A DNA stretch of 64,000 bases, taken from IMG/VR virus record IMGVR_UViG_3300007511_001544, positions 54,569 to 118,568 of that record. The stretch is one strand, 5' to 3'. Shown here one piece after another: positions 17,715 through 38,030 of this stretch (position 1 is the stretch's first letter; each line of letters begins with the position of its first letter). Under the pieces are notes generated by a model, which did not search any database, had not been told where the DNA came from, and saw only the letters and a list, made by a program, of their open reading frames with translations. This stretch comes from a virus. A program made the translations under genes and the position numbers.

Positions 17715-18040
17715 TGGTGGAGGTAGGGAGAATCGAACTCCCGTCTTGCCTAGTTCTATAGAAGGGGTCATTCACAAGGTTGGGTCTGTTTTTTTCGTCA
17801 GACAGCCCGCTTGACTAGATCGTTTTATTGCGGCTAAAACAATCAAAAGCACTTAGGACACCCAAATACGGCTTTCTGTTTATTGGCTGCCGTCGCCTCA
17901 TGGGAGGTCAGGTTTTTAAGCTGCCATCTCCATTTCGAAATCGTCATTGGCGATTAAAGTTTTAAGCGTTTTTAGTGAGCCACGCTTCCCTCACCCTTGC
18001 ACCTTTTCTATTTTCCCATCAATCGATACCGGTTACCCCC
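17715..18040 (-). ncRNA. ssrA: tmRNA (ssrA), one-piece
   Basis: A 326-nt RNA gene. The 5' end GGGGGTA pairs over 7 bp (with one G-U) with TACCTCC before A-CCA at 17715. A tRNA-type T-arm (GGGAGTTCGATTCTCCC) lies next to the 3' end. The tag frame is at 17916-17951: resume codon GCC, encoding ANDDFEMEMAA, then TAA. The tag starts AND and ends in AA, as in bacterial degradation tags. CCA is encoded. The gene has its own promoter and terminator. It would rescue stalled ribosomes and tag the released peptides for proteolysis. Confidence 0.95.
17916..17951 (-). other. tmRNA peptide-tag reading frame (ANDDFEMEMAA)
   Basis: Inside the tmRNA, GCC at 17949-17951 is followed by ten further sense codons and TAA at 17916-17918. 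The upstream TTAATC matches the usual context just before the resume codon. The C-terminal MAA resembles the hydrophobic-AA end read by ClpXP. Confidence 0.88.
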
Positions 18041-27581: not shown

Positions 27582-29822
27582 TTAGACTGGTAACGCTGTT
27601 CCGTGAGTCAACTCGACAACCTGTAGCATTCCACCAGAGACTGAGATCATGAAATCCTTTAAAGCTCCTGCATCGTTGGTTCCTTGCAAAACCATCCTTG
27701 GAATGAGTGCAGCATTCGCCGCCGTGCTGATATCACTACTTGAGATGTAAAGAGCAGCCTTATGGTTACTGCCGTTTGCACTACCCGTGTTCGAGCAATG
27801 AACACCAGCGCCGACTCCGCCCGAAAGCGAGCCTTCACCATAGACTTTAACTGCGCCTTGCGATTCGAGCGAGCCCACCTGCGCTCCACCCGCAGCAACC
27901 AGGGCACCTGCGCTACTGATCGAGCCCTGTCCGCCAGCGACGGAGAGGCTTTGACCTTGGAGAGCGCCAGCACCAGAAACAACACCGGCAAGAGAGATCG
28001 TTGCCTCTTCAGTTGTTAAAGCTCCAAATGCACCCGGTCCAGCACCCGAAACAGTGGTTACTGCCGAAACCGCACCAGCTTGTGATATTATATCAGCGCC
28101 ATTTATGGTCAACTTAGCACCAGCAAGCGATGAAGCACCAGAGATGCTTGTCACATTAGTTATAGCCTTTTCATCGGTAACAATGATTGAGTTGCCCAAC
28201 TCCAGTGCCATTCCCGAAATTATCCCAGCGCCAGAGATTGCCCCGGCAACAGAAATTGTTGCTTCTTCTGTCGTCAGAGATGCACCAGCTACATTGCCAG
28301 CACCTGAAACTGTGGTCTTGGCTAACAGAGATGCCGAGGTTTCAATAGCATTATTACTGAGAATCTTGGATGTAAAAAGGTTTATTTTAATATTACCCGA
28401 GAGCGCAGTTGGCTGAAAGGTTTCAGCAGTCAAAGTACCGGAGACATTCATATCATTGGCGAAAAGATCTCCTAAGAAAGTACCACCGCCTGAAGATGAA
28501 ACAACACCATTTTTATTAACATTAAATATATTAGCAACCTTGAGTGACTGACCTTGTACAGCACCTGCGCCTGACATAACACCGGCAACAGAAATTGTTG
28601 CTTCTTCTGTCGTCAGAGATGCACCAGCTACATTGCCAGCACCTGAAACTGTGGTTACTGCCGCAACCGCACCAGCGGTTGTAACAACATCGCTGTTTGC
28701 AATGGTGAGCTTTTGTCCTTGTACAGCACCTGCGCCTGACATAACACCGGCAACAGAAATTGTCGCTTCTTCGGTTGTTAGGCTCGCACCCTGTACGGCA
28801 CCCGCACCAGAAACAACACCGGCAACAGAGATTGTTGCCTCTTCTGTCGTTAAAGATGCACCAGCTACATTGCCAGCACCCGAGACCGTAGTCTTGGCCA
28901 CCAAAGATGACGAAGCAGCGAAAGATAAACCAGTAACAGCTTTTACAAAGTGTGCAGCACCAGAACCTGACACATCACCGTCGCTTTGTACCTTAAAGAG
29001 GTTGGCAACAGTAAGTGCTTGTCCTGAGACAGCACCAGCACCAGAAATAACACCTGCGGCTGTTATGGTAGCTTCCTCTGTCACTAGGTTCTGTCCACTG
29101 ACAGCACCAGCACCAGAAACAGTGGTTGGAGCTACAAGAGCACCAGCCTGGGTTACAACATCCGTTCCGTTGATGGTTAGTTTTGCACCAGCCAGCGACG
29201 AAGCACCCGAAACAGTGGTTACTGCCGCAACCGCACCAGCGGTTGTAACAACATCGCTGTTTGCAATGGTGAGCTTTTGTCCTTGGACAGCGCCAGCACC
29301 GGAAATAACACCGGCAACAGAAATCGTTGCCTCTTCCGACGTCAGAGATGCACCAGCTACATTGCCAGCGCCTGAAACGTCGGTTCCAGCAATAACTTTG
29401 TTAGTGCCGGAAATTTGCCCATTAGCTGAGAATGTATAACTTTCACCCTCACCACCAGTGAACTCACCAGCGTCAGTAAAACTCACCAAAGTATTACTTT
29501 GAATAAGTTTACCAGTTGTACCATCAAAACGAACAACAGCGTTGTCAGTCGCTGAACTTGGTCCAGTAACATCACCATTGGTATCCTTCAATGCTCCGCT
29601 CAAGTAGTTAAGAGCTTGAATAATAGAACCAGAGGCGTTACCAAAACTATCACTAAGATAGAAGCGACTCCACTCGTTCGTGGTTAAATTACTTAATCCA
29701 CCAAGAACTGTTCCTGAAACTGGAAGTGCTAAAAACTCCCCTGAAGAACCTGTGACAATTCCACCGACCATTGCCATGTTGGCCTGAAAAGAACCACTAT
29801 CACCTGCTAAACCGAAAGCCAT
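27582..29822 (-). CDS. Large repetitive tail-fibre-like structural protein
   Basis: A 746-residue protein. Residues from about 140 to 650 are built from repeats of roughly 20-35 residues around SGAGAVQGQ, GASLTTEEATISVAG and VTTVSGAG, typical of phage fibre shafts. The conserved N-terminal 75 and C-terminal 60 residues match the neighbour at 26379. A strong AGGAGG precedes the ATG and a clear terminator follows. It is a probable adhesion fibre; the near-identical DNA repeats would favour length variation by recombination. Confidence 0.82.
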   Translation of the reverse strand: MAFGLAGDSGSFQANMAMVGGIVTGSSGEFLALPVSGTVLGGLSNLTTNEWSRFYLSDSFGNASGSIIQALNYLSGALKDTNGDVTGPSSATDNAVVRFDGTTGKLIQSNTLVSFTDAGEFTGGEGESYTFSANGQISGTNKVIAGTDVSGAGNVAGASLTSEEATISVAGVISGAGAVQGQKLTIANSDVVTTAGAVAAVTTVSGASSLAGAKLTINGTDVVTQAGALVAPTTVSGAGAVSGQNLVTEEATITAAGVISGAGAVSGQALTVANLFKVQSDGDVSGSGAAHFVKAVTGLSFAASSSLVAKTTVSGAGNVAGASLTTEEATISVAGVVSGAGAVQGASLTTEEATISVAGVMSGAGAVQGQKLTIANSDVVTTAGAVAAVTTVSGAGNVAGASLTTEEATISVAGVMSGAGAVQGQSLKVANIFNVNKNGVVSSSGGGTFLGDLFANDMNVSGTLTAETFQPTALSGNIKINLFTSKILSNNAIETSASLLAKTTVSGAGNVAGASLTTEEATISVAGAISGAGIISGMALELGNSIIVTDEKAITNVTSISGASSLAGAKLTINGADIISQAGAVSAVTTVSGAGPGAFGALTTEEATISLAGVVSGAGALQGQSLSVAGGQGSISSAGALVAAGGAQVGSLESQGAVKVYGEGSLSGGVGAGVHCSNTGSANGSNHKAALYISSSDISTAANAALIPRMVLQGTNDAGALKDFMISVSGGMLQVVELTHGTALPV
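28020..29420 (-). repeat. Tandem degenerate repeats inside the fibre gene
   Basis: Blocks such as the one coding for SGAGAVQGQ and AGASLTTEEATISVAGV recur at least six times with near-identical DNA (for example around 28260, 28585, 28750 and 28820). They encode the fibre shaft. Confidence 0.8.
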
Positions 29823-30420: not shown

Positions 30421-30497
30421 TGGTAGGGGACCTGGGACTTGAACCCAGAACCTATCGATTATGAGTCGAGTGCTCTGACCAATTGAGCTAATCCCCC
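30421..30497 (-). tRNA. tRNA(CAU), probably Ile2 (lysidine substrate)
   Basis: A 77-nt cloverleaf with encoded ACCA and anticodon loop CTCATAA. It lacks the C1-A72 mismatch and the GC anticodon-stem pairs of initiators. The arm CGACTCATAATCG closely resembles bacterial tRNA-Ile2. A tilS gene overlaps it, so the CAU is probably modified to lysidine to read AUA. Elongator Met is the alternative. Confidence 0.88.
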
Positions 30498-31097
30498 ACA
30501 GTTATTATATTCCTTTTCTACAAGTTTTTTAAATGTTTTTTCGAGCCCTTTATTTACCTTGCGAGCATGAGGCATAATATCGTTTCTGATAATGCTTCTC
30601 ATAAACTTTCTATCGGTATTCCCTGGGTCAATCATAAACGGCACATCCTTACGTTCGCACCAATCTTCTAGCGAGCGTTTAGAGGTGGAGATAAACGGTC
30701 TATAAACGTTTTGATTCTTGTAGGGCATAAGTTTACCCTGTCCGTGCAAAGAAGAGAATAAAAACCACTCAATCACATCGTCTAAGTTGTGACCCGAAAC
30801 AATAGCCATGTCGAAACTGTGAAAGAACTTATAGCGTTCATCACGCCAATGCTCTTCAAGCGATTTTTTCGGAGGACACCCATTATAATTAATACCTACA
30901 ACAAGAGGAATATCTCTATTATCGCAAAAGTTCTTTACAAATCTTTTACATTTTCGTCCGAAGTCTGTGCCGTGGTCAAAATAGACTGCGGTTACCTCAT
31001 GGTTGTTGCTGAGAAAGTCTAGAATTGCCATGGAGTCTGGTCCGCCGCTGACAGCGACTCCTAATTCTCTCGGTAATTTTCCTAAGACTCGTAACAT
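30459..31097 (-). CDS. tilS: tRNA(Ile)-lysidine synthase (TilS), compact form
   Basis: A 212-residue N-type ATP pyrophosphatase. VAVSGGPDSMAIL is the PP-loop, followed by YFDHGT and SGHNLDDVIEWFL, all typical of TilS. It converts C34 of tRNA-Ile2(CAU) to lysidine. Bacterial TilS proteins are usually over 300 residues, so the C-terminal domains are missing. ATG at 31097 is just clear of the upstream tRNA-Arg. The frame runs into the tRNA(CAU) gene and stops at the TAA within its anticodon loop. Confidence 0.88.
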   Translation of the reverse strand: MLRVLGKLPRELGVAVSGGPDSMAILDFLSNNHEVTAVYFDHGTDFGRKCKRFVKNFCDNRDIPLVVGINYNGCPPKKSLEEHWRDERYKFFHSFDMAIVSGHNLDDVIEWFLFSSLHGQGKLMPYKNQNVYRPFISTSKRSLEDWCERKDVPFMIDPGNTDRKFMRSIIRNDIMPHARKVNKGLEKTFKKLVEKEYNNCGGLAQLVRALDS

Positions 31098-31107
31098 CTT
31101 AACCCCT

Positions 31108-31184
<77 letters not shown>

Positions 31185-32123: not shown

Positions 32124-32597
32124 TTATGAAACTAACTCAAGGTCACGCTGGGAGTAGAAGGGGTTGTAGCGGTCTTCGCTACCATCGTACTGAACCTTGT
32201 AGTTCCCGCCGGCTTCGGCTTGGATCACCAAGGCAACCTTGCCTGCCAACTTCCAACGATTGTTGCGCTTGTTATCTTTGAAGCGCACTAGCGAACCGAC
32301 CGAGTATTTGGGCGGCAGCGGAGCGAGCGTGTTGAGTGCTTGCGTAATGTTGTCATAAAAGCAGCCTGGAAAGTAGTCCGTGTGAGGGTCTGACTCTTCA
32401 CCAGCACGCTTCACATGGGGAGCACTAATGCTGCCGTCCCTGTTGGTCCAAAATGACAGAAGCTGGTTGGAGCCTTCAAACTGAATGTAGACTTTGACCT
32501 GACCATTGTTGTGATAGTCATTCTGCTCAATGAAAACCTCACGGTCTACAATTTTAGCACGATTGCGAACTTTCTTGAGAGCGTTTTCTAACTTCAT
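32124..32597 (-). CDS. SH3-like domain protein, unknown
   Basis: A 157-residue protein. The C-terminal 60 residues (YSVGSLVRFKDN, GKVALVIQAEAGGNYKVQYDG) show the small SH3-like barrel pattern found in many short genes of this window. The N-terminal half is a separate beta-rich region. It is read from its own promoter at 32619-32646 with GGGGGAG before the ATG. Confidence 0.7.
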   Translation of the reverse strand: MKLENALKKVRNRAKIVDREVFIEQNDYHNNGQVKVYIQFEGSNQLLSFWTNRDGSISAPHVKRAGEESDPHTDYFPGCFYDNITQALNTLAPLPPKYSVGSLVRFKDNKRNNRWKLAGKVALVIQAEAGGNYKVQYDGSEDRYNPFYSQRDLELVS

Positions 32598-32618: not shown

Positions 32619-32646
32619 ATATTATCATGGAAACAAAGGAAGTCAA
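32619..32646 (-). promoter_or_regulatory. Strong promoter, shared phage type
   Basis: TTGACT at 32641-32646, 16-base spacer ending in ATGA, and TAATAT at 32619-32624 with extended TG. The leader CTAATGTAAGGGGGAGAG resembles the leaders at 35957 and 61568. Confidence 0.8.
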
Positions 32647-32649
32647 GAA

Positions 32650-32956
32650 AAAAATGAAACCGGAGGACGGAATCGAACCGCCATTTTCAACCTTCCAATT
32701 AGGCTCCGGTGGTGAACCGAATCAGGATAATCAATCCATCATCTTATGTCTTTTATTTACCCGCTGATGAGACAGGTCAGGGAAGTCTTATCCAAATGAT
32801 CAGTTCAGATTTCTTTCCCTTGTTGAGAAGGAAACAGTCATAAACTCAGAGCCGAGGGAGAGCATGATAACCGTCTCCATCTGTCAGTGCCGCCGCTACA
32901 GATCCCTAGGGCGAATGTCGTGGCTCGGCACTGAGTTTATGACTGTCTCTCCCTCC
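32650..32956 (-). ncRNA. Structured non-coding RNA of unknown class
   Basis: No protein frame fits 32598-32995. A strong promoter at 32963-32990 predicts a start near 32956. The RNA opens with a long helix: 16 bp perfect (32931-32946 with 32835-32850), one mismatch, then 6 bp (32924-32929 with 32852-32857). Weaker pairing extends it outward. Inside are two hairpins (ATCTGT/ACAGAT and GGAGA/TCTCC). About 120 less structured bases follow, then the tRNA-like fold at 32655-32710 and a T-run that could end transcription. Confidence 0.7.
32655..32710 (-). ncRNA. tRNA-like fold without an anticodon arm (3' end of the ncRNA or tRNA pseudogene)
   Basis: ACCGGAG pairs over 7 bp with CTCCGGT, followed by TTCA. 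A canonical T-arm (GGCGG-TTCGATT-CCGTC) and a short D-like arm (CCT-AGG) are present. Only about nine bases stand where the anticodon arm should be. It cannot decode codons. Either it is a deletion remnant or it is a purposeful tRNA mimic. Confidence 0.65.
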
Positions 32957-32962
32957 AACAGT

Positions 32963-32990
32963 ATAATAGCACGGATTAGGGGATGGTCAA
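32963..32990 (-). promoter_or_regulatory. Strong promoter for the structured RNA
   Basis: TTGACC at 32985-32990, 16-base spacer ending in GTGC, and TATTAT at 32963-32968. It points into the RNA, not into a gene with a ribosome site. Confidence 0.8.
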
Positions 32991-32995
32991 GTTTT

Positions 32996-33478
32996 TTATT
33001 GCTTCCAGTTAGGGAATTTTTTTCTATACGCACGAGCAATACAATTTACCCTCTCTGCGTATTCTAAAATCTTTTTTATATTTTTAGATTTCTGCCAGCC
33101 TGGTCCGCCATTATAGCAGGCAGCCAAGTTTAACCCTTTACAGGCTTTGTATTTTTTCATTTCCTTTAACACTACAGCAGCAGCGACAACACCATGACCA
33201 GGGCTTGACATATCAACCAAGAATTTTTTCTTTGAAGTATATCCCCACCTCTTACCCCAAAAATTATAATTAATCTGAAATATTCCGTAATCACCCGTGT
33301 GTGAAACTCTGTTAGCTTTTACTCGTGACTCAACCCAAGCAATCGCAATAAAATAATGAGGGTCTAAATCTAGTTTGTTTACTTGGTCTATTATAATAGC
33401 GGCGTTTGCTCGCTGATCCTCTTTAAAGTAAGACGGATAGCCATAACCAACCAATAAAGCTATTAATAACCAAGGCAT
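32996..33478 (-). CDS. Secreted lytic transglycosylase (SLT-type endolysin)
   Basis: A 160-residue protein. A hydrophobic start (MPWLLIALLVGYGYP) is a probable signal or signal-arrest segment. AWVESRV holds the catalytic E50, and GDYGIFQIN plus NLAACYNGGPGW are the conserved SLT motifs. The enzyme cleaves peptidoglycan without hydrolysis. It overlaps nothing and sits after a 59-residue gene. It may be the lysis endolysin or a virion-independent muralytic enzyme. Confidence 0.88.
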   Translation of the reverse strand: MPWLLIALLVGYGYPSYFKEDQRANAAIIIDQVNKLDLDPHYFIAIAWVESRVKANRVSHTGDYGIFQINYNFWGKRWGYTSKKKFLVDMSSPGHGVVAAAVVLKEMKKYKACKGLNLAACYNGGPGWQKSKNIKKILEYAERVNCIARAYRKKFPNWKQ

Positions 33479-35978: not shown

Positions 35979-36006
35979 ATAGTATCATGGATTAGGGGTC
36001 TGTCAA
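35979..36006 (-). promoter_or_regulatory. Strong promoter, shared phage type
   Basis: TTGACA at 36001-36006, 16-base spacer ending in ATGA, and TACTAT at 35979-35984. The leader CATATGTAAGGGAGAGAG is shared with other members and carries the ribosome site. Confidence 0.85.
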
Positions 36007-36086: not shown

Positions 36087-38030
36087 CTAACTATCTCGCC
36101 ATAAGTTGTTTGCGGCGAACTTTATGACCTCTTCTGCTGAGTTTTCGTCGTATCCATACTCATCAATCAAGGTTTTTACCATTTCATTGTACTTTCCTTG
36201 CTGTTTTTTGTCTCTAGACTTGGATTTGGTCACAATTCGTGAAATTTGCTTGACTGAAGAGGTCAATTTACTCTCAATTGCCTCTTTGAGTGGCGCATAC
36301 GACTGCCAATCGACTTTTTCGCCTCTCCGAAGCTTAGAAAACATGTATGCAGTGATATCAACTCGGAAATTCTCTTTAGAAGTACCAGTAATTCCAATTT
36401 GTTCCTCAATTGACTCCATAAATTTGTCATCTGGTGTTATTTCTTCGTTTGTGATGGCATCTTTAACAGTGGACATGTTCACATATGCTTCTGCATGGTC
36501 CAGATAGTTGTTAAATAAGGCTTCTGCCTGTTCATCATAGGCAGAAACGAATGCTTTTGTGATTTCTTTCTCTAAGATATTCAAATATTCATCGTGAAGG
36601 GTCTTTCCAAGGAAATCAAGGTACCGATTTCTATCGTCTTCTACCACTATTTGGTCTTTGACTTGCTTTATAAGCGTTTCTCGGATGGATATGGGGGTTA
36701 CCATATTTTTCTCACTATCTGACAATGCCGAATCAATTGCTTTCATGATGAATCTTGTAGAGATCCCGGTCATCCCTTCATCTCGTGCCTCATCTCTCAA
36801 GTCATTAATGTCTATTTTCTTTACATGCCCCTTTTCGATCACATCTTTACCATCATATAATTTCATCTTAGTAAGAGCATCTACTTTATTGGACGGACGC
36901 AATCGACTTAACACAGCAAACATCGAAGCAATCTCAAGTGTATGCGGTGCAATGTGACCATCGAAGTCAGATAGTCCCAACATTTTTTCATAAATCTTTA
37001 TTTCTTCAGTTACTTCCAAACAGTACGGCACATTTACTCTAACTATTCTATCCAAGATAGCTTCATTTGTATTTTCTGACTTAAACTTGTTCCATTCCGC
37101 CTCATTACAGTGCGCCAAGATAACCCCATCAAAATATATCATGGGACCTTTTCCTGGCGAAGGAACAGCTTTCTCTTGAGTGGCAGTAATCATGGTGTGT
37201 AAGAATTCAATTTCGTTTTTAAAGACTTCAACGAACTCTACGATACCTCTATTTCCAACATTAAACGCCCCGTTTAAAGAAAGGACCCTGGGGTCATCTT
37301 CGGGGTATAAATCTAATTTGGATATATCTTCGCTGCCGACCAAAATTGTCACATCCTGACTATTTGCGTCCATTGGTGGAACAACTCCTACACCACGTCT
37401 ACCACGAACAGAAAAAGATGACTGCGTAATGGGCATTGATGTATAATCGCTGCCAAATTCTTCCTTTAATCTAAACCTACAAACAGGACACAAGTCCCCC
37501 TCAATGCGAATCCCATATATTTTTTGAAACTCCTCCCGAAGAGAGCGAGGAATGAGGTGGAGGGGTTCCTCGTGGACAGGACACCCATCAATGTGATACA
37601 TTGGATCACATTCTTCCAGGGCTCCTTTAATGTGTTCCATCAGTGCAGACTTGCCAGCACCAACTGGGCCCAGCAGTAAAAGAACCTGGCGACTTTCTTC
37701 TCCCTTCAGTGCTGCTGAACGGAGGAACCTCATAATCTTTGCTAGAGATCTCTCCATTCCAAAAAACTTGCTTTGGAAATAATCATATGTTCTTATCTTC
37801 TCGCCGTTGAAAAGTTTATTACAACGATCCGAAGATTTTGACATCTTTGTAATGCCATGGTTTATGATGGCATCAAATAGTCTTCGGTGGGCGAGTTTAG
37901 AAACCCCAATGTCTTCTTCTATTATTTTAAGATAATCGGACAATGTTCCACGAAACTTATTCTTTTTCTTTTTTTCACGGTGTTTGCCAACAAGTTTCAG
38001 AAACTTATCAGATTTGTTATTTCTTGTCAT
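36087..38030 (-). CDS. prkA: PrkA-type serine protein kinase / AAA+ protein
   Basis: A 647-residue protein, full length for the family. LLLLGPVGAGKSALMEH is Walker A; the N-terminal AAA+ PrkA domain is followed by the C-terminal kinase-like domain, with YFDGVILAHCNEAEW between. In bacteria PrkA (YeaG) acts with YeaH and SpoVR in stationary-phase and nitrogen-starvation responses and in sporulation. Here all three genes stand in one tight operon, YeaH first and PrkA last. Confidence 0.92.
   Translation of the reverse strand: MTRNNKSDKFLKLVGKHREKKKKNKFRGTLSDYLKIIEEDIGVSKLAHRRLFDAIINHGITKMSKSSDRCNKLFNGEKIRTYDYFQSKFFGMERSLAKIMRFLRSAALKGEESRQVLLLLGPVGAGKSALMEHIKGALEECDPMYHIDGCPVHEEPLHLIPRSLREEFQKIYGIRIEGDLCPVCRFRLKEEFGSDYTSMPITQSSFSVRGRRGVGVVPPMDANSQDVTILVGSEDISKLDLYPEDDPRVLSLNGAFNVGNRGIVEFVEVFKNEIEFLHTMITATQEKAVPSPGKGPMIYFDGVILAHCNEAEWNKFKSENTNEAILDRIVRVNVPYCLEVTEEIKIYEKMLGLSDFDGHIAPHTLEIASMFAVLSRLRPSNKVDALTKMKLYDGKDVIEKGHVKKIDINDLRDEARDEGMTGISTRFIMKAIDSALSDSEKNMVTPISIRETLIKQVKDQIVVEDDRNRYLDFLGKTLHDEYLNILEKEITKAFVSAYDEQAEALFNNYLDHAEAYVNMSTVKDAITNEEITPDDKFMESIEEQIGITGTSKENFRVDITAYMFSKLRRGEKVDWQSYAPLKEAIESKLTSSVKQISRIVTKSKSRDKKQQGKYNEMVKTLIDEYGYDENSAEEVIKFAANNLWRDS

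Follow-up and report, generated by a model that had tools for sequence, protein, structure and literature searches.

A putative structured RNA gene with an anticodon-armless tRNA-like 3′ end in a lake phage

The bacterial Y RNA YrlA consists of a tRNA-like element attached to another RNA; it has a terminal stem and works with the Ro protein. The mammalian MALAT1 RNA has the tRNA-like mascRNA at its end, and tmRNA (RF00023) carries, within a longer RNA, a tRNA-like domain that has no anticodon arm. GOLLD and ROOL are phage RNAs that lie near tRNA islands, and GOLLD often exceeds 800 nt (PMC12286853). In the literature that we searched, which left out most subscription papers and preprints, neither a class of anticodon-armless phage tRNAs nor phage tRNAs with a shifted D-loop are described, and priority for either is not proved.

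The DNA analyzed here, called the window, is a 64,000-nucleotide stretch of a 118,568-base virus record from a lake phage. A first-pass annotation of its sequence had described a promoter-driven structured RNA that ends in a tRNA-like fold lacking the anticodon arm, and that observation is confirmed.

Structure and setting of the putative RNA gene

The RNA and all of its described features are on the minus strand, which the first-pass annotation had left unstated, with the 5′ end near 32960 and the 3′ end at about 32655. The features of the locus, together with the phage's tmRNA, are the following:

32996–33478, minus strand: SLT transglycosylase gene, which related phages lack at this site and which came in along with the RNA (locus comparison)
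32963–32990, minus strand: promoter, TTGACC-N16-TATTAT with an extended TG, of a form common to the phage's other minus-strand promoters
32818–32960, minus strand: domain 1, the 5′ hairpin, in which 34 base pairs form an interrupted stem (11 outer, 17, a U-U mismatch, then 6) enclosing smaller hairpins (energy relative to shuffles)
32713–32812, minus strand: domain 2, predicted to form a long, irregular hairpin that lies between domain 1 and domain 3 (energy z −1.1)
32655–32710, minus strand: domain 3, the anticodon-armless tRNA-like element (layout, Rfam tRNA, models R3 and R2)
32710–32704 with 32665–32659, minus strand: acceptor of the tRNA-like element, ACCGGAG/CTCCGGT
32703–32691, minus strand: D arm
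32690–32683, minus strand: linker TTGAAAAT
32682–32666, minus strand: T arm
32658–32655, minus strand: TTCA
32648–32654, minus strand: run of seven T, also found in relatives that have no RNA and located within the spacer that precedes the next promoter
32619–32646, minus strand: promoter of the downstream gene (32124–32597), just before which the RNA stops
17715–18040, minus strand: genuine phage tmRNA (Rfam match) with the tag ANDDFEMEMAA, which ends in MAA and not in the usual LAA

The promoter aimed at this stretch matches promoters that the phage uses for mRNAs, as its earlier description as a shared type had implied. The same form, TTGAC and then TG[AC]TA..AT downstream, is found at 36006, 48928, 50090, 61618, 32646, and 32118, in all six cases on the minus strand and upstream of a reading frame. 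The roughly 300 nt behind it had been described as having no gene, and they contain no convincing open reading frame, only one unsupported frame of 21–26 amino acids. The first bases of the RNA (TGTTGGAGGGAGAGACAG) resemble the Shine-Dalgarno leaders behind the similar promoters, with no ATG after them, and the Shine-Dalgarno-like leader GGAGGGAGAGA is within the 5′ strand of domain 1. From this arrangement we infer that the RNA is transcribed from its own promoter.

The first-pass annotation had proposed a long 5′ helix with one mismatch that could be extended, and domain 1 bears this out. Its core is a 17-bp helix and a 6-bp helix separated by one U-U mismatch (32947–32924 paired with 32856–32833), to which 11 outer pairs are added, and the loop region carries small hairpins. 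The folding energy of domain 1 was −66.5 kcal/mol, compared with −42.3 ± 3.8 in dinucleotide shuffles (z −6.46), and none of 300 shuffles was as stable. For the whole RNA the z value was −3.35, and the acceptor and T arm were retained in the full-length MFE structure. Domain 2 and the tRNA-like end were no more stable than their shuffles (z −1.1 and −0.7, respectively); the claim for the 3′ end therefore rests on its layout.

That layout contains the 7-bp acceptor, T arm, and TTCA of the earlier description, together with a D arm and with no anticodon arm. All seven acceptor pairs are Watson-Crick. The T arm (GGCGG-TTCGATT-CCGTC) has all five stem pairs, one of them G-U, and a loop that conforms to TTCRA, and the D arm (CCT-AATTGGA-AGG) has a 3-bp stem. 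An 8-nt linker takes the place of the anticodon arm, and U8-A9 is absent. The element ends in TTCA with no encoded CCA, and the phage's ordinary tRNAs (31263–30266) do encode CCA. A strict search for the armless tRNA layout found one example in the window, against none across 40 shuffled versions of it. The Rfam tRNA model (RF00005) aligned to the element with a deletion in place of the anticodon arm and scored it at 21.5 bits, which is below the gathering threshold of 29. An alternative anticodon hairpin, TTCGG-TTCACCA-CCGGA, was rejected, as it excludes the acceptor and leaves only 4 of 7 acceptor pairs.

The T-run reported after the element is present, with seven T residues, but it is not a terminator specific to the RNA. 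Because relatives that have no RNA also have this run upstream of the next gene's promoter, we conclude that it is ancestral and was not made for the RNA.

In the collections searched, the sole other holders of the RNA were L004 (171,926 bases) and L005, records of the same phage with 99.7–99.99% identity to the window. The RNA was absent from 14 relatives, in which the identity of the downstream gene was 33–87%, and no homologue of the whole RNA was found in phage records, in pattern scans with the hairpin arms and the tRNA-like end, or in the relatives' whole records (model R1). Compared with the close relatives L006, L009, L010, and L012, the transglycosylase gene and the RNA are inserted between a gene for a 59-amino-acid protein and the T-run; other relatives hold different small genes at this site. 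Homologues of the transglycosylase occur elsewhere in the relatives with no RNA adjoining. The absence of the RNA from the relatives shows that a discrete unit was inserted, most likely a transglycosylase-plus-RNA cassette; the site varies between phages and lies upstream of the tRNA genes.

Several other features of the window were recorded. A PP-loop (TilS-like) gene (30421–31142, minus strand) lies directly before a tRNA with a CAU anticodon, a pair that suggests a phage lysidine synthetase with its tRNA-Ile2 substrate. In or near a gene for a 746-amino-acid repetitive protein (27582–29822, minus strand), the alignments between the window and L004 and L005 are broken, which suggests that these records of one phage differ in their number of repeats. 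The window also encodes PrkA (36087–38030, minus strand) together with SpoVR and DUF444 proteins, a trio that co-occurs in bacteria, and GroEL-like, ClpP, PhoH, and NeuB proteins.

Armless and D-loop-shifted tRNAs in other phages

Armless elements were sought in other viral contigs with the pattern CTCANTTGGNAGAGCN{3,16}GGTTCGANTCC, which specifies a common D arm followed 3–16 nt later by a T arm and leaves the acceptor unspecified; the spacing keeps ordinary tRNAs out. The complete list of matches comprised 34 viral contig stretches. At least six of the seven acceptor pairs were present in register in 28 of them (19 distinct sequences), where about 1.3% would be expected by chance. Among 18 aligned sequences, which had been selected for at least six acceptor pairs, 98.6% of cells were paired, and covariation was 0.807 compared with 0.160 in shuffled alignments (0 of 500 as high). 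The variety among these sequences could have been inherited from differing parent tRNAs, so that it shows the arms to be intact and does not show selection after loss of the arm. About 10 of the loci had no ordinary tRNA in the stretch read. Further armless examples with other D-loops were found in L178/L181, L185, and L069.

A model (R3) built from the 18 armless tRNAs of other phages, with the window excluded, matched the window element over its full length at 30.2 bits (E 2.7e-10 over 64 kb, a rough value from a short calibration). Ordinary tRNAs also match R3, by means of an insertion; the match thus shows tRNA character, and the 52-nt length shows armlessness. Most of the other armless elements stand alone, and no upstream hairpin like that of the window was seen beside those that were folded. 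The fusion of an armless element to a hairpin RNA is thus a single case. In bacterial genomes the armless pattern gave 0 of 46 in one phylum sample, which is too small to show absence from hosts.

Armless elements also occur in cultured phages. Relatives of the armless element in L212 were found in 19 phage records, 17 of which are Lactococcus phages of the P335 type (P335, bIL309, TP712, 63301, and others). The lactococcal element (L245–L251) has no RNA annotation in the records inspected. A 59-nt form is identical in bIL309, D2544, and P335, and the upstream flanks of the three differ. In Polaribacter phage Danklef_1 (NC_062745; L248:1495–1552) the element is annotated as "tRNA-OTHER, Undet_(NNN)". 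With similar elements in unrelated phages, including well-studied dairy phages, armless tRNA mimics may be common and mostly unexamined.

A second pattern, AATTGGAAN{6,22}GGTTCGANTCC, was derived from the window element and matched at least 119 viral stretches. Among the matches listed were 31 distinct tRNAs with the D-loop placed after the anticodon arm (L055:902–981, L043:6869–6947, L044:4044–4123, L072:4787–4862, L111:4045–4123, and about 26 more viral loci). Their order is acceptor, TA, 5′ strand of the D stem, anticodon arm, 3′ strand of the D stem, D-loop, T arm, and acceptor, so that the D stem encloses the anticodon arm. The D-stem strands were part of neither the pattern nor the parsing, and 83 of 93 D-stem cells were paired, compared with 45.4 ± 4.4 (maximum 60) in 2000 partner shuffles. 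Pairing was 97% in the acceptor, 93% in the anticodon stem, and 98% in the T stem, with strong covariation; most of the acceptor and anticodon pairs had been required in parsing.

Most of the D-loop-shifted tRNAs are tRNA-Arg, and their anticodons are UCU (19), ACG (7), UCG (3), CCU (1), and UCA (1). The layout is not confined to arginine, because tRNAs that have a GGTA D-loop and CAU or GAU as the anticodon also show it (L168 near 4223; L180 near 7813, minus strand; L183 near 4616). The tRNA with the UCA anticodon (L102:440–526) would read UGA, and stop-codon recoding in that phage is possible. ARAGORN misses most of these tRNAs, and Rfam scores several of them at 35–41 bits. Cultured Pseudomonas phages of the PA11 group (L196, L203–L206) have a D-loop-shifted tRNA that encodes GCCA, shows two compensatory T-stem changes between phages, and has no tRNA annotation in the records inspected.

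The window element has in common with this family TAATTGGAA..TGAAAAT directly before the T stem. A model of the family (R2) scored the window element at 29.0 bits, compared with 20–26 for the phage's own ordinary tRNAs. The window element was rejected as a complete D-loop-shifted tRNA, since that fold leaves 4 of 7 acceptor pairs and no pairing between the two D-stem strands. To judge from these resemblances, it may be a D-loop-shifted tRNA minus its anticodon arm.

Possible roles of the RNA

The acceptor-T stack and the D/T elbow are the part of a tRNA that is recognized by RNase P, the tRNA 3′-end enzymes, the CCA-adding enzyme, and EF-Tu. The tRNA-like end of the window RNA keeps this part, a 12-bp acceptor/T stack with the D/T elbow, and has lost the decoding part; having no anticodon, it cannot decode. 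The reading that we prefer, and that we hold tentatively as somewhat short of probable, is that the phage has a gene for a non-coding RNA, about 300 nt long, in which the armless tRNA serves as a processing or stability tag. The 5′ half of this RNA folds into a long, near-perfect hairpin that also buries the Shine-Dalgarno-like leader. Through the tag, host tRNA enzymes would set the 3′ end of the hairpin RNA and shield it, by analogy with the mascRNA end of MALAT1, or they might instead cut the tRNA-like element off and so release the hairpin RNA. In favor of this reading are the promoter of the phage's own type, the stability of domain 1, the armless layout and its R3 score, the recurrence of armless elements in other phages, cultured ones included, and the insertion of the RNA as a discrete unit. 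The fusion as a single case, the missing U8-A9, the 3-bp D stem, and TTCA where CCA would be are at odds with a tag. Only copies from the same phage carry the whole RNA, so that the proposed fold and function would have no evolutionary support of their own.

The main rival, which we judge unlikely yet closest to the tag in weight, is that the element is a decayed tRNA whose arm was lost by one deletion and which lies behind the hairpin debris of a lost gene, with no RNA function. A standard promoter and a Shine-Dalgarno leader with no start codon, TTCA in place of CCA, and the restriction of the RNA to one phage are consistent with decay, and the sequence and 29-bit model score in common with the D-loop-shifted tRNAs would be expected of a remnant. 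However, every pair of the acceptor and T stem is intact, debris would not give so perfect a 5′ hairpin (z −6.46), and armless tRNAs that retain their acceptors turn up again and again in many phages. This recurrence, including one form that is identical in three lactococcal phages despite differing upstream flanks, would also be consistent with a decoy for a factor that binds or attacks tRNA, such as EF-Tu, a synthetase, RNase P, or a defence toxin acting on the acceptor end. The element keeps precisely the half that these factors recognize and drops the decoding half; yet the sequence points to no target, the element lacks CCA, and it is not multi-copy, and we judge a decoy improbable. The first-pass annotation had suggested a decoy for host RNA polymerase or a translation factor, a role that the results do not support directly.

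We consider it more doubtful still that the stretch is an untranslated leader or terminator in which the two structures, hairpin and tRNA-like stem, serve as insulation between the transglycosylase gene and the promoter that follows, and no working RNA is made. The T-rich tract after the stem and the promoter just beyond it fit such an arrangement, but relatives without the stem keep the same ancestral T-run, a separate promoter faces the stretch, and a terminator would have no use for a D arm and T loop. All remaining readings, taken jointly, have a very small share of the probability. Two of them were considered individually. In some P335-type phages the armless element is close to the attachment region or the integrase (the distance to the integrase is 0.4 kb in D6867), as it might be if the tRNA-like end were an attP site, a phage copy of a host tRNA for integration. 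This seems highly improbable here, given that the 172-kb record of the phage has no tyrosine integrase and only 7 of 25 records searched encode one. In addition, P335 phages, which have separate att cores, integrate for the most part outside tRNA genes, and on the phiKW2 prophage map an "unspecified tRNA" is shown separately from the att sites (PMC3757294). Least credible of all is a tmRNA variant or second tmRNA. The end without an anticodon arm would fit one, but the phage has a real tmRNA, both acceptor strands are local, no tag reading frame was seen, and Rfam gave no tmRNA match.

Should phages make and use armless tRNAs, they would own a non-decoding tRNA shape that could occupy or exploit host tRNA enzymes. 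Standard tRNA finders miss these elements or label them undetermined. Their presence in much-studied dairy phages opens the question to test in ordinary laboratory strains.

Comparison with described RNAs

The whole RNA matched no Rfam family at gathering or permissive thresholds, the sole match being the sub-threshold tRNA. The absence of a match agrees with the first-pass annotation that neither 6S RNA nor tmRNA fits, and for tmRNA the separate genuine gene argues likewise. The window RNA resembles tmRNA in having a tRNA-like domain without an anticodon arm within a longer RNA. However, the tmRNA acceptor is formed by the two RNA ends, whereas both strands of the window acceptor are local and not at the RNA ends; the 5′ end of the RNA could form the acceptor pairing only with three G-U pairs, and the local acceptor is perfect. 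YrlA and mascRNA/MALAT1 are similar in that a tRNA-like element is joined to another RNA. A bacterial Y RNA was rejected, with a Ro/TROVE protein gene in 0 of 15 related records. GOLLD and ROOL are likewise phage non-coding RNAs near tRNA genes, but they are much larger than the window RNA, which has no Rfam match.

Among phage elements, the D-loop-shifted tRNAs carry an anticodon arm between the acceptor and the D-loop, and the window element does not. The armless genes of other phages have the same plan as the window element, with a 7-bp acceptor, a D arm, a T arm, about 7–14 nt replacing the anticodon arm, and mostly no encoded CCA. They differ in having U8-A9 and a 4-bp D stem, where the window element has no U8-A9 and a 3-bp D stem, and in being mostly stand-alone, whereas the window element is fused to a 240-nt structured RNA. 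It is possible, though we would stop short of calling it probable, that phages repeatedly make anticodon-less tRNAs as a class of functional mimics kept for their acceptor-elbow half, one of which here would form the 3′ domain of a larger structured RNA.
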